DNA of 64,000 bases from Sandaracinus amylolyticus (GTDB lineage Bacteria > Myxococcota_A > Polyangia > Polyangiales > Sandaracinaceae): the NCBI RefSeq assembly GCF_021631985.1, contig NZ_CP070225.1, forward strand, positions 3,658,001 to 3,722,000, given 5' to 3'. The notes below the pieces were generated by a model that saw only the letters and a list, made by a program, of their open reading frames with translations, was not told the origin of the DNA and made no database searches. This document shows positions 6,126-62,306 of this stretch, in pieces. A program made the position numbers and the translations under genes. Every line of letters begins with the position of its first letter. Position 1 is the stretch's first letter.

Positions 6126-6899
6126 TCACGTCACCGGCGTCTCACCTCCCCCGTTCGCGGGGGCGCCGTCGCGCGCCGGCGGGGTCTCGCTCGTCGGCGC
6201 GCGCATCGGCGTGCTGCGGTACTGGTCGACGGCCCCCACGGCCTTCGCGAAGCGCTGCACGGTCGCCGGATCACGCTCGTCGACGTCGGCGAGCAGCGCG
6301 CGCATGTACTGACCGACGGCGCGACCGAACTCCGCGAGGGCGGCCTGGAGCCCGTTGGGGCTCGCGAGCTCGCGCGTGCCGCGGCCGACGCCGATCGCTT
6401 CCGCGAGCTCGCGCGTCCCCAGCTTCACACCGTCGAGGAACTCGGCGCCGACGATCTCGGTGAGCTCGTCCGCGAGCGACTCGGCCTCGATGCGATCGAG
6501 GCGACGCTTCGCCTCCGACCACGCCTCGTCGGCTTCGAGGAGCGTGAACACGAGTCCGTCGGTGAAGAGCGTCTGGAGCAGCTTCGCCGCGCGGGCGCCG
6601 CGATTGCCGACGCGGACGCGGCTCGTCCCGCTGAGGGTGTCGTGCAGCGCGCCCCAGTCGTTCTGGAACAGGAGCTTGATCGGCCGGAGCTTCTCGGGCG
6701 CCAGGCGGTCCCTCTCCGACTTGACCTGCTGCACGAGCTCCGCCGCGGCGACCACCTCGCGGCAGTAGCGCGTCTGGAGCGGCGTCGCGTCGTCCGGCAG
6801 CGCCTTCTGGAGGCGGCGCGCGAGCGGCATCGCGCTCTCTGCGGTGACACGGATGTTCGAGGCATAGGCTCGGTAGTCGATCTCGATCGGGCTCGGCAC
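6126..6899 (-). CDS. Conserved hypothetical protein, helical, 257 residues
   Basis: I do not recognise a named domain. The protein is predicted to be soluble and almost wholly alpha-helical, with a regular Leu/Ala/Arg pattern and a disordered Pro/Ala/Gly-rich tail after about residue 225. The start is GTG at 6899, supported by a good ribosome site (AAGGAG at 6906-6911) six bases upstream. It runs convergently with the BatA operon and leaves a 353-base divergent region towards coxB. The strong ribosome site and clean codon pattern make it a real gene. No function is inferred. Confidence 0.75.
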   Translation of the reverse strand: MPSPIEIDYRAYASNIRVTAESAMPLARRLQKALPDDATPLQTRYCREVVAAAELVQQVKSERDRLAPEKLRPIKLLFQNDWGALHDTLSGTSRVRVGNRGARAAKLLQTLFTDGLVFTLLEADEAWSEAKRRLDRIEAESLADELTEIVGAEFLDGVKLGTRELAEAIGVGRGTRELASPNGLQAALAEFGRAVGQYMRALLADVDERDPATVQRFAKAVGAVDQYRSTPMRAPTSETPPARDGAPANGGGETPVT

Positions 6900-6986: not shown

Positions 6987-7018
6987 CGATCACGGGTCCT
7001 CCGGAGGACCCGTGATCG
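6987..7018. repeat. 32-bp perfect palindrome
   Basis: Positions 6987-7002 (beginning CGATCACGGG) are the exact reverse complement of 7003-7018, with no spacer. It lies in the 353-base gap between divergent genes (6900-7252), and its right half is the first copy of the 42-bp tandem repeat. It could be a cruciform, an operator for a dimeric protein, or a terminator, although no T-run follows. Confidence 0.9.
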
Positions 7019-7201
7019 ACGCGCGCGACGGTTCCACGTCCTCCCGAGGACCCAGATCGACGCGCGCGACGGTTCCACCTGCTCCGAAGGACCCGTGATC
7101 GACGCGCGCGACGATCCCACCTCCTCCGGAGGACCCGTGATCGACGCGCGCGACGATCCCACCTCCTCTGGAGGACCCGTGATCGACGCGCGCGGCGATC
7201 G
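7003..7201. repeat. Tandem repeat, about 4.7 copies of a 42-bp unit
   Basis: GGACCC recurs at 7006, 7048, 7089, 7131 and 7173, i.e. at steps of 42, 41, 42 and 42 bases. Each copy continues with variants of GTGATCGACGCGCGCGACG, then GATCCCACCTCCTCC. Copies 4 and 5 are nearly identical and the earlier ones have drifted. The array fills most of the gap between the gene starting at 6899 (minus) and coxB at 7253 (plus). It is non-coding in every frame that matters. The last 50 bases before coxB show no clear promoter. Confidence 0.9.
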
Positions 7202-7252: not shown

Positions 7253-8263
7253 GTGCGCCCGCTGCCGCCCGCGCTCTCGACGTTCGCGCCGGAGGTCGAC
7301 CGGATCTTCGCGTTCGTCCACGGCACGGCGGCGATCGCGCTCGCGGTCGTGGTCATCGCGCTCGTCGTGCTCGCAGTCAGGCATCGTCGCCGGCGCGGTG
7401 TCGCAGCCGCCCCACCGAGCGTCTCGCGCGCGTGGCTCGCGCTCGAGCTCGCTTGGGCGGTCGCGCCGGTCGTCCCCTTCGCCCTGATGTTCCACTGGGG
7501 CTTCCAGGCGTATCTCCGCCAGTCGATCGCGCCCGACGACGCCTACGTCGTGCACGCGCGGGCGCGTCAGTGGGCGTGGGAGTTCGAGCATCCGAACGGG
7601 ATCACGGAGGACAACGAGCTCCACGTCCCAGCGGGACGGGCGGTGCGCTTGGTGCTCTCGTCGTCGGACGTGATCCACTCGTTCTTCGCGCCCGAGCTGC
7701 GCGTGAAGCGCGACGCGGTGCCCGGAACGTTCACGTCGCTGTGGTTCGAGGCGATCGAGCGCCCCGACGTCCCGCTGGAGGGCGATCTCTCCGTGCCCGA
7801 CGCGCGGCGCATCTGGTACCGCGCACCGATCCTCTGCGCCGAGCTCTGCGGTGCGAGCGGGCGCTGGGGACCGAACGCGGGCCACGCGACGATGAGCGCC
7901 GAGATCCTGGTGATGCGCCCCGAAGACTTCGACGCGTGGGTGAGCACGCCGGGCTGTCTCGGGTTCCCGCCCGCCACGACGCTCGAGTGGGGCCAGCAGC
8001 TGTTCTCGATGAAGGGCTGCACCGCGTGCCACGCGCGCGAGGAAGGCGCGCCACCCCTCGCCGGGCCGAGCCTCCACGCGCTCTTCGGGCGCGAGGTCCG
8101 GATGGCGAGCGGCGAGGTCGTGATCGCCGACGAGGCCTACGTGCGCGAGGCCATTCTCCAGCCGCACGCGCGCGTCGTCGCGGGGTTCGATCCCGTGATG
8201 CCGCGCATCCGGATGAGCGACGAGCAGCTCGACGCGCTCCTCGAGTACCTGCGCACGCTGTGA
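7253..8263 (+). CDS. coxB: Cytochrome c oxidase subunit II fused to cytochrome c (CoxB-type)
   Basis: A 336-residue protein: two N-terminal membrane helices (about 19-42 and 62-84), a periplasmic cupredoxin domain, then a cytochrome c domain. CuA ligands are H142 (DVIHSF), C195, E197, C199, H211 and M214. The second Cys to His distance is 12 instead of the usual 4, an insertion of eight residues in the metal loop (SGRWGPNA). The haem site is CTACH at 256-260, with M316 as probable axial ligand. The start is GTG 7253. No subunit I or III gene occurs in the window, so this is an orphan subunit II. It could serve a distant oxidase or act as an electron-transfer protein. Confidence 0.9.
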   Translation: MRPLPPALSTFAPEVDRIFAFVHGTAAIALAVVVIALVVLAVRHRRRRGVAAAPPSVSRAWLALELAWAVAPVVPFALMFHWGFQAYLRQSIAPDDAYVVHARARQWAWEFEHPNGITEDNELHVPAGRAVRLVLSSSDVIHSFFAPELRVKRDAVPGTFTSLWFEAIERPDVPLEGDLSVPDARRIWYRAPILCAELCGASGRWGPNAGHATMSAEILVMRPEDFDAWVSTPGCLGFPPATTLEWGQQLFSMKGCTACHAREEGAPPLAGPSLHALFGREVRMASGEVVIADEAYVREAILQPHARVVAGFDPVMPRIRMSDEQLDALLEYLRTL

Positions 8264-8286: not shown

Positions 8287-8679
8287 GTGATCACCCCGCC
8301 GCTCCGCGATGCGATCGAGCAGCTCTATCGCGTGTTCGCCCGCTATCCGCGGCCACCCGCGGTCCGAGGTTGCCCGTGCTGCGTCACCGACGCCGATCGC
8401 GCGCGCCTGCATCGCGCACCGCTCCGCGACCTCACGGCCGACGACCTGAAACGCTACGCGTTCAAGTCGCGCGCAGTGCTCATCCCGTTCCTCGAGTCCC
8501 TCACGTACCAGCGCACCCTCGATGTCTGGACCTCCACCGAGACGTCCGACGCGATCACGCGTTGGCTCGCGTCGCGCCCCGCCGTGATCGAGCGCGCGAT
8601 CGACGAAGCCGACCCGCCTGACCGCGAGCTGCTTCGTTGCGCCCTCGAGCCCTTCCGACTGCGCGCGCAGACGCTCTGA
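8287..8679 (+). CDS. Conserved hypothetical protein with GCPCC motif
   Basis: A 130-residue soluble protein of unknown function. GCPCCV near residues 27-32 suggests a metal- or thiol-binding site, followed by the conserved-looking stretch LTADDLKRYAFKSRAV. The start is GTG 8287; an in-frame GTG at 8260 overlapping the coxB stop is an alternative, and neither has a strong ribosome site. It follows coxB by 23 bases and may share its transcript, so a link with copper or haem handling is conceivable but unproven. Confidence 0.7.
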   Translation: MITPPLRDAIEQLYRVFARYPRPPAVRGCPCCVTDADRARLHRAPLRDLTADDLKRYAFKSRAVLIPFLESLTYQRTLDVWTSTETSDAITRWLASRPAVIERAIDEADPPDRELLRCALEPFRLRAQTL

Positions 8680-17615: not shown

Positions 17616-17936
17616 AATCGGCTCGCCCGCCGGTCCCCACCGTCCGCGTGCTCCGCACGCTCCCGTCCGGGACCGCGGGACGAGCACTCCGGCTCAGCAA
17701 TCGGCTCGCCCGCAGGTCCCTACCGTCCGCGCGCTCCGCGCAGGACCGGCGGGACGAGCACTCCGGCTCAGCAATCGGCTCGCCCGCAGGTCCCTACCGT
17801 CCGCGCGCTTCGCACGCTCCCGTCGGGACCGGCGGGACGAGCACTCCGGCTCGGCGAATCGGCTCGCCCGCAGGTTCCTACCGTCCGCGTGCTCCGCACG
17901 CTCCTGTCCGCGACCTGCGGGACGAGCACTCCGGCA
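17616..17936. repeat. Tandem repeat, four copies of a 74-84-bp unit
   Basis: Copies begin with AATCGGCTCGCCCGC at 17616, 17699, 17773 and 17857 (steps 83, 74, 84), each ending near GGGACGAGCACTCCGG. The unit contains small internal palindromes such as GCGCGCTCCGCGC. It fills the whole gap between a plus-strand gene ending at 17609 and a minus-strand gene ending at 17941, so it lies where both transcripts terminate. No credible coding frame is present. Confidence 0.9.
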
Positions 17937-44145: not shown

Positions 44146-44231
44146 CGTCGGAGGCCGGCAAGGTAGCAGCGCCCCTCGTGGAGACCACTCCGGGGCTCCA
44201 GGGGCGGGCGCCCACCCCCGGCGTCGATCCG

Positions 44232-44420
44232 GGTGACCCCCGATTGGTCGGCCGGTGACCCCCGACTTCGATCCCGGTGACCCCCGACTTCGATCCCGGT
44301 GACCCCCGACTTCGATCCGGGTCACCCCCGAATCGATCCCGGTGACCCCCGACTTCGATCCCGGTGACCCCCGAATCGATCGCGGTGTCCCCCATTTGCG
44401 ATCGCGGTGTCCCCCGTTTC
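44232..44420. repeat. Tandem repeat, nine copies of a 22-bp unit
   Basis: GGTGACCCCCG or a variant recurs at 44232, 44254, 44276, 44298, 44320, 44341, 44363, 44384 and 44406 (steps of 21 or 22). The unit is close to GGTGACCCCCGACTTCGATC. The last two copies read GGTGTCCCCC. It lies between the stop of the kinase gene (44503) and the miaB start (44145), both minus strand. The rest of 44146-44502 shows no gene. Confidence 0.93.
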
Positions 44421-62177: not shown

Positions 62178-62186
62178 GGGGCTGTG

Positions 62187-62306
62187 TTTCCGCCGCAGCG
62201 TCGTGGTTTCCGCCGCAGCGTCGTGGTTTCCGCCGCAGCGTCGTGGTTTCCGCCGCAGCGTCGTGGTTTCCGCCGCAGCGTCGTGGTTTCAGCCGCAGCG
62301 TCGTGC
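62187..62306. repeat. Tandem repeat, six copies of a 20-bp unit
   Basis: Exactly 20 bp steps at 62187, 62207, 62227, 62247, 62267 and 62287; unit TTTCCGCCGCAGCGTCGTGG. Five copies are identical and the last begins TTTCAGCC. There are no spacers, so it is not a CRISPR. It directly follows the tRNA-Leu terminator. The stretch 62307-62488 shows no gene and only a lone TTGACC at 62452. Confidence 0.95.

Follow-up and report, generated by a model that had tools for sequence, protein, structure and literature searches.

An orphan CoxB-cytochrome c gene with a lengthened CuA loop in Sandaracinus amylolyticus, and CuA loop length across its order

The accessible portion of PMC9145763 gives the CuA motif as H-x34-C-x-E-x-C-x3-H-x2-M, and that of PMC6696091 describes CuA coordination as fully conserved and CuA loops as recognised by Sco chaperones. 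When Type 1 loops were engineered into the Thermus CuA scaffold, the resulting sites were mononuclear and their reorganization energy rose with loop length (PMC7480511, available part). The solved protein closest in sequence to the one described here is subunit II of the Thermus thermophilus caa3 oxidase (2yev chain B; E value = 8.8e-28, residues 10 to 334 aligned), which likewise joins a CuA cupredoxin domain to a C-terminal heme c and has the same ligand residues. It differs in three respects: it has Cys-x3-His where our protein has Cys-x11-His, our protein has a longer stretch ahead of the first Cys, and no subunit I gene lies near our gene.

The orphan gene and its CuA site

We analysed a stretch of 64,000 nucleotides of the S. 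amylolyticus genome (the window; NZ_CP070225.1, positions 3,658,001 to 3,722,000; bare coordinates below refer to it). At 7253 to 8263 on the forward strand, it carries a gene with a GTG start for a 336-aa protein in which two N-terminal hydrophobic stretches are followed by a CuA cupredoxin domain and then by a C-terminal heme c domain. The Pfam scan placed PF00116 (COX2) at 41.2 bits, above its gathering cut-off of 22, and PF00034 at 36.4 bits against 21.3, so that the class I heme c domain of a caa3-type subunit II is present. The NCBIfam CoxB equivalog TIGR02866 reached 137 bits in two stretches, below its cut-off of 147.7; in the genome search, it gave 116.3 for this gene and 133.7 for the operon paralogue described below, or 150.5 for the paralogue with its neighbours in frame. 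Pfam COX2_TM had no match in the orphan up to an E value of 1 and matched the operon copy at 27.8 bits. The heme motif is CTACH (C256-x-x-C259-H260; 8018 to 8032, forward strand; by translation and PF00034), and Met316 (8198 to 8200, forward strand), invariant in an alignment of 14 rows, is the likely sixth heme ligand, judging from the family.

All six CuA ligand residues are in place: His142 (7676 to 7678, forward strand, by translation) stands outside the ligand loop, and Cys195, Glu197, Cys199, His211 and Met214 lie within it (C195-x-E197-x-C199-x11-H211-x2-M214; 7835 to 7894, forward strand; read from the translation and from the 120-row alignment described below). What departs from the published motif is the spacing. 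Cys199 and His211 are 12 residues apart rather than 4, with 11 codons between them (7850 to 7882, forward strand) instead of the usual 3; eight are thus extra, their exact placement not being fixed, and the alignment with 2yev chain B shows the same 8-residue gap between the second CuA Cys and the His. A second expansion, absent from the original prediction, runs from about residue 168 to Cys195 (7754 to 7834, forward strand, by alignment with the published motif) and brings the gap between His142 and Cys195 to 52 residues from the published 34, so the x34 and x3 of the motif read x52 and x11 here. The original prediction, made from the DNA letters and translations, had described an orphan fusion of CoxB to cytochrome c in which the CuA loop is enlarged and Cys195, Glu197, His142 and Met214 are all retained; translation and domain assignments bear out this description. 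Structure prediction added little: AlphaFold models of the protein alone and together with two IMG/VR relatives (one of them a 112-residue piece) had mean pLDDTs of 41.1 and 38.9, and although they contain long N-terminal helices, their confidence is too poor for placing the loop.

The claim that no subunit I gene is near also holds, as COX1 (PF00115) is missing from the window and the four COX1 genes of the genome all lie elsewhere. Among the five window neighbours scanned with Pfam, no redox family was found (three had no match, one was DUF547 and one BatA/VWA), and the conserved downstream open reading frame (ORF) at 8287 to 8679 matches no Pfam family. Between the orphan and a divergent gene on the reverse strand (6126 to 6899), there is a tandem array of a 42-bp unit in 4.9 copies (6997 to 7200), which may not belong to the orphan. 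Its period recurs in the sister species, the core spacings being 41, 42, 42 and 42 here with one more 42 there; elsewhere in the genome, a search allowing up to 3 mismatches returned a single match, with three mismatches. We considered this array as an operator of the orphan and rejected the idea because it is not special enough: the window has other long arrays, at 17652 to 17935 (74/84-bp units), 44214 to 44416 (22/43/65-bp units) and 62186 to 62305 (20-bp units).

The operon paralogue and CuA loop length across the order

The genome (10.96 Mb) has three CoxB genes and four COX1 genes. A search for a partner cox operon, which had been proposed as a check, located an ACIII-caa3 operon about 290 kb from the orphan, and its CoxB (C1:3373734-3374732; L011:7732-8769) is the closest paralogue, with 63% identity, the same spacing of 12 and the same CoxB-cytochrome c fusion. 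Its loop reads CTEYCGAGGSWGDNAGHATM and has the same 8-residue excess, which is therefore not peculiar to the orphan. The operon copy sits between Sco and CoxA and has a membrane part that matches COX2_TM, whereas the orphan has neither feature. The order of the operon is ActA, ActB, ActC, ActD, ActE, ActF, a 239-aa ORF, Sco, CoxB, CoxA and CoxC. ActD matches PF11821 (230 bits), ActC is NrfD-type, ActA has five CxxCH motifs, the monoheme ActE is at L172:890-1516, and Sco and the cox genes were named by Pfam; the names ActA, ActB, ActE and ActF are our assumption from gene order and size.

The third CoxB gene, with a spacing of 4, is part of another caa3 locus, in which CoxA and CoxC are fused (L012:4079-6607, 842 aa, read from sequence). 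Of the last two COX1 genes, one is a CcoN-CcoO fusion (L013:4426-6759, 777 aa, PF00115 and PF02433) beside a CcoP-like gene; the other, beside a cytochrome c gene, is called COX1 by Pfam, and we take it to be NorB-type. These three other heme-copper loci (caa3, cbb3 and NorB-type) each adjoin partner subunits of their own, and the most economical partner for the orphan would be the CoxA of the ACIII-caa3 operon.

We then compared loop length among relatives. At least 104 of the 115 sampled genomes of the window's order match the protein at an E value of 1e-8, and searches of the order and the phylum gave 125 distinct CoxB-like rows. Five lacked a readable CuA motif and were dropped (L131, L152 and three pieces: L130 with 206 aa, L140 with 243 aa and L090 with 122 aa), leaving 120, among which two rows with Ala in place of the CuA Glu (L132 and L129) were retained as short; the 120 rows are a sample of the matches listed, chosen for their similarity to the window protein and to relatives of it. 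A Cys-His spacing of 4 was read in 69 rows; the other 51, from 45 genomes, range from 11 to 32. The commonest long spacings are 12 (12 rows), 19 (11 rows), 16 (8 rows), 20 (6 rows) and 27 (4 rows), others being rarer. Every long row belongs to the window's order, whose 88 rows also comprise 37 short ones, some of them of other oxidase types, and all 32 rows from outside the order, found by searches within the window's phylum, have a spacing of 4.

A search of DNA for the pattern C-[AT]-E-[YF]-C-G followed by a spacing of 11 to 20 agreed with this distribution: it was positive in 26 of 377 phylum genomes, all 26 in the window's order (71 genomes sampled by row count), with none among the other 306 and none with the reversed-pattern control. 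The pattern covers only these spacings and needs Tyr or Phe between Glu and Cys, so it misses the orphan itself, which has Leu. A scan of the genome contigs with one sequence yielded a single locus (L064), in which no CoxB was found.

Three further observations concern the extent of the family. One genome of the window's genus (G030; 6.0 Mb, 96% complete) has no match at an E value of 1e-8 among the matches listed, and two others of that genus (G000 and G012) do match at this value; the absence could be a loss of the oxidase, a different lineage or a binning gap. One of the dropped rows (L152, from G178) is a CoxB-like heme c protein whose CuA region, CAGLCAHGVEG, apparently lacks the usual His and Met ligands, and its stretch includes a subunit I gene. 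Two contigs from a viral collection carry a full-length CoxB-cytochrome c of 335 aa with a spacing of 4: IMGVR_UViG_3300020437_000003 (145,971 bp; L167:5001-6008) and IMGVR_UViG_3300038530_003085 (L168). A single small ORF separates it from a gene downstream that matches PHROG endolysin/amidase families, and no INPHARED phage record covers 80% of the viral-contig CoxB; the contigs may carry an oxidase subunit encoded by a phage or may be host DNA.

Each of the 51 long rows keeps the six CuA ligand residues, followed by a heme c motif, and for 43 of them the fetched stretch also contains a subunit I gene. The eight exceptions are the gene in the window together with its orthologue (L015), L050, L053, L055, L029, L018 and L034; the last three are on short pieces, and a subunit I neighbour could thus have been missed. 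These results bear on the earlier suggestion that the site may be altered for another electron donor or be a modified Cu protein, that is, that the long loop makes a mononuclear, Type-1-like or otherwise changed centre. The fixed spacing of the published motif and the rise of reorganization energy with loop length in the engineered Thermus scaffolds (accessible parts of PMC9145763 and PMC7480511) speak for such a change, but no long row has lost either bridging Cys, the Glu, either His or the Met, the large majority have a subunit I gene in the fetched stretch, the operon paralogue shares the spacing, and no feature singles out the orphan. We therefore regard an altered copper site as improbable. 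The same counts go against the original prediction in another way, as lengthened loops occur in many ordinary oxidase subunits of relatives, the observation that it had itself named as refuting.

Because none of the six ligands is lost whatever the length of the loop, we favour a normal dinuclear CuA site out of which the extra residues would bulge. Gly, Ala, Asn and Pro abound in the long loops, whose ends hardly vary (in 44 of 51 rows the cysteine is followed by GA, and in all 51 the histidine is preceded by Asn or Gly), and in composition the loops look like a surface bulge. In 11 of the 51 long rows, the stretch of 28 residues ahead of the first CuA Cys contains two to four cysteines (L019, L020, L023, L026, L027, L050, L053, L055, L117 and L119 of family f4, and L024 of f2), perhaps held in disulfides. 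No insertion in subunit I tracks the CoxB loop among the rows compared (94 of 107 CoxB rows with a CoxA, selected on CoxA score); residue differences in subunit I that are linked to the loop were set aside, as they may merely follow phylogeny.

A tree of the 120 rows (loop columns left out, quick method, unrooted) placed most long rows in one group of 57 rows (support 99), which also includes short rows (G006, G079, G002/G036 and G099/G026/G054), and three long rows (G015, G007 and G034) fell outside it, surrounded by short rows. The 120 rows require a minimum of 7 switches between long and short, and a 95-row subset a minimum of 6; gains and losses of the loop are not distinguished because the tree is unrooted. 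A single clade of long rows was rejected (AU test, P value = 1.15e-05) on the 95-row subset, which left out 25 of the 120 rows as distant or long-branched, the group tested being defined by the trait but chosen with the tree already known. These results indicate that loop length is a trait of the lineage and is not peculiar to the orphan.

Origin and likely role of the orphan

In the same tree, the orphan and operon copies of two congeners form one group of 6 rows (support 95), and therefore the duplication most likely took place within the family. The other two rows of the group are long-branched, degenerate orphans of G002 and G036 (L132 and L129), CoxB-cytochrome c proteins with the motif CGAFCGTGHARM, in which the CuA Glu is replaced by Ala, and with a very long branch; no subunit I gene was found in their 7-kb stretches. 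Three more genomes each have a long-loop CoxB gene that stands as an orphan, with no cox gene near it in a 19-kb stretch (L050, L053 and L055). The last of these genes (L055, in G067) aligns with the query from residue 43 onward only and has an open frame without a recognisable first helix. Together with L029 (G057) and the G002/G036 pair, these three orphans imply at least 4 changes between operon and orphan on the tree, a count that leaves out the short-piece rows L126, L087, L018, L034 and L150 and scores L029, itself on a short piece, as an orphan.

The orphan is flanked by genes in the same order in the sister species (G012), whose orthologue is 88% identical and shares 19 of the 20 loop residues. 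The long loop is not due to chance, since these residues are so nearly identical in the orthologue and the operon paralogue has a loop of equal length. For the same reason, and with lengthened loops in all 45 genomes mentioned above, a sequencing, assembly or reading-frame artefact is refuted by the homologues, and its probability is close to nil.

Between the window and the sister species, dN/dS was 0.284 for the orphan and about threefold lower (0.094) for the operon copy; among the neighbours, three were at 0.141 to 0.191 and the small downstream ORF was at 0.465. In alignment with the operon copy, identity drops to 21 of 50 and 22 of 42 positions over the two helix regions and to 12 of 26 over the linker, against 15 of 20 in the CuA loop and 61 of 75 in the cupredoxin sheet. 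The orphan is thus strongly diverged in its membrane part and under purifying selection between the two species. Its faster evolution and lack of cox neighbours would also suit a decaying duplicate without function, as would the damage seen in other orphans (the missing first helix of L055, the missing CuA Glu of the G002/G036 pair). However, the frame is intact in two species, the dN/dS stays at the value given, the ligands and the heme motif are kept and the loop is nearly identical, and we consider decay quite unlikely.

From these comparisons, the orphan is probably (with a probability of roughly 0.6) a duplicate of the coxB of the ACIII-caa3 operon that left the operon and has been kept as a stand-alone subunit II isoform. 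As such, it would assemble with subunits I and III of the operon and replace the regular subunit II under some condition, and electrons would pass from heme c to the dinuclear CuA and on to heme a of subunit I, as in caa3 oxidases, a path suggested by the protein families. Pairing with the operon CoxA is uncertain because the membrane part has diverged and COX2_TM is not matched, and the diverged helices therefore leave room for a protein that works without an oxidase core, as a CuA-heme c wire that is anchored in the membrane and passes electrons from one periplasmic carrier to the next or to some other acceptor. The lack of a CoxA gene in the window, the loss of a COX2_TM match that the operon copy still has, and the divergence of the membrane part while the CuA loop and cupredoxin stay conserved are all consistent with a wire; yet the protein retains its two hydrophobic N-terminal stretches and its fused heme c, and the five neighbours scanned offer no redox family, which makes this alternative unlikely.

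Under the preferred reading, a retained subunit II isoform, the loop would be a bulge beside CuA that was first tolerated and then possibly used. Its use, if any, would most likely be as a recognition surface close to CuA, for either the copper chaperone Sco or a partner cytochrome; Sco is a candidate because it reads CuA loops.

Comparison with described systems

Taken across the order, the material suggests a wider reading that we offer only tentatively: in the ACIII-linked oxidase of this order, the CuA loop would have become variable (Cys-His 4 to 32) with the dinuclear centre intact, its length tuning electron-transfer parameters or recognition by partner or chaperone, and the repeated orphan coxB duplicates would serve as exchangeable subunit II isoforms. 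Whatever its use, one bacterial order holds natural CuA sites with a Cys-His loop 7 to 28 residues longer than normal. This order-wide variation, which is less expected than the orphan itself and is the part worth following, offers natural proteins on which to test a metal site whose spacing has been taken as fixed, and effects of loop length on reorganization energy and on Sco recognition become testable on natural proteins.

In the accessible literature (PMC7480511, PMC6696091, PMC9145763 and PMC8361435 included, each in its available part; subscription journals lay mostly outside the search), we found no description of naturally lengthened CuA loops. The engineered Thermus CuA chimeras (PMC7480511, available part) are man-made and have a mononuclear Type 1 centre, whereas the loop described here is natural and both bridging Cys are kept. 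For the orphan, the nearest parallel is the cbb3 oxidase of Pseudomonas aeruginosa (PMC5697931, accessible part), which also has a stand-alone gene for an extra oxidase subunit outside a full operon and for which use of the orphan subunit is reported. The Pseudomonas orphan is a cbb3-type subunit, whereas the one in the window is a subunit II of an A-type oxidase, known from its sequence, and it is a candidate for a subunit II isoform in this oxidase type.
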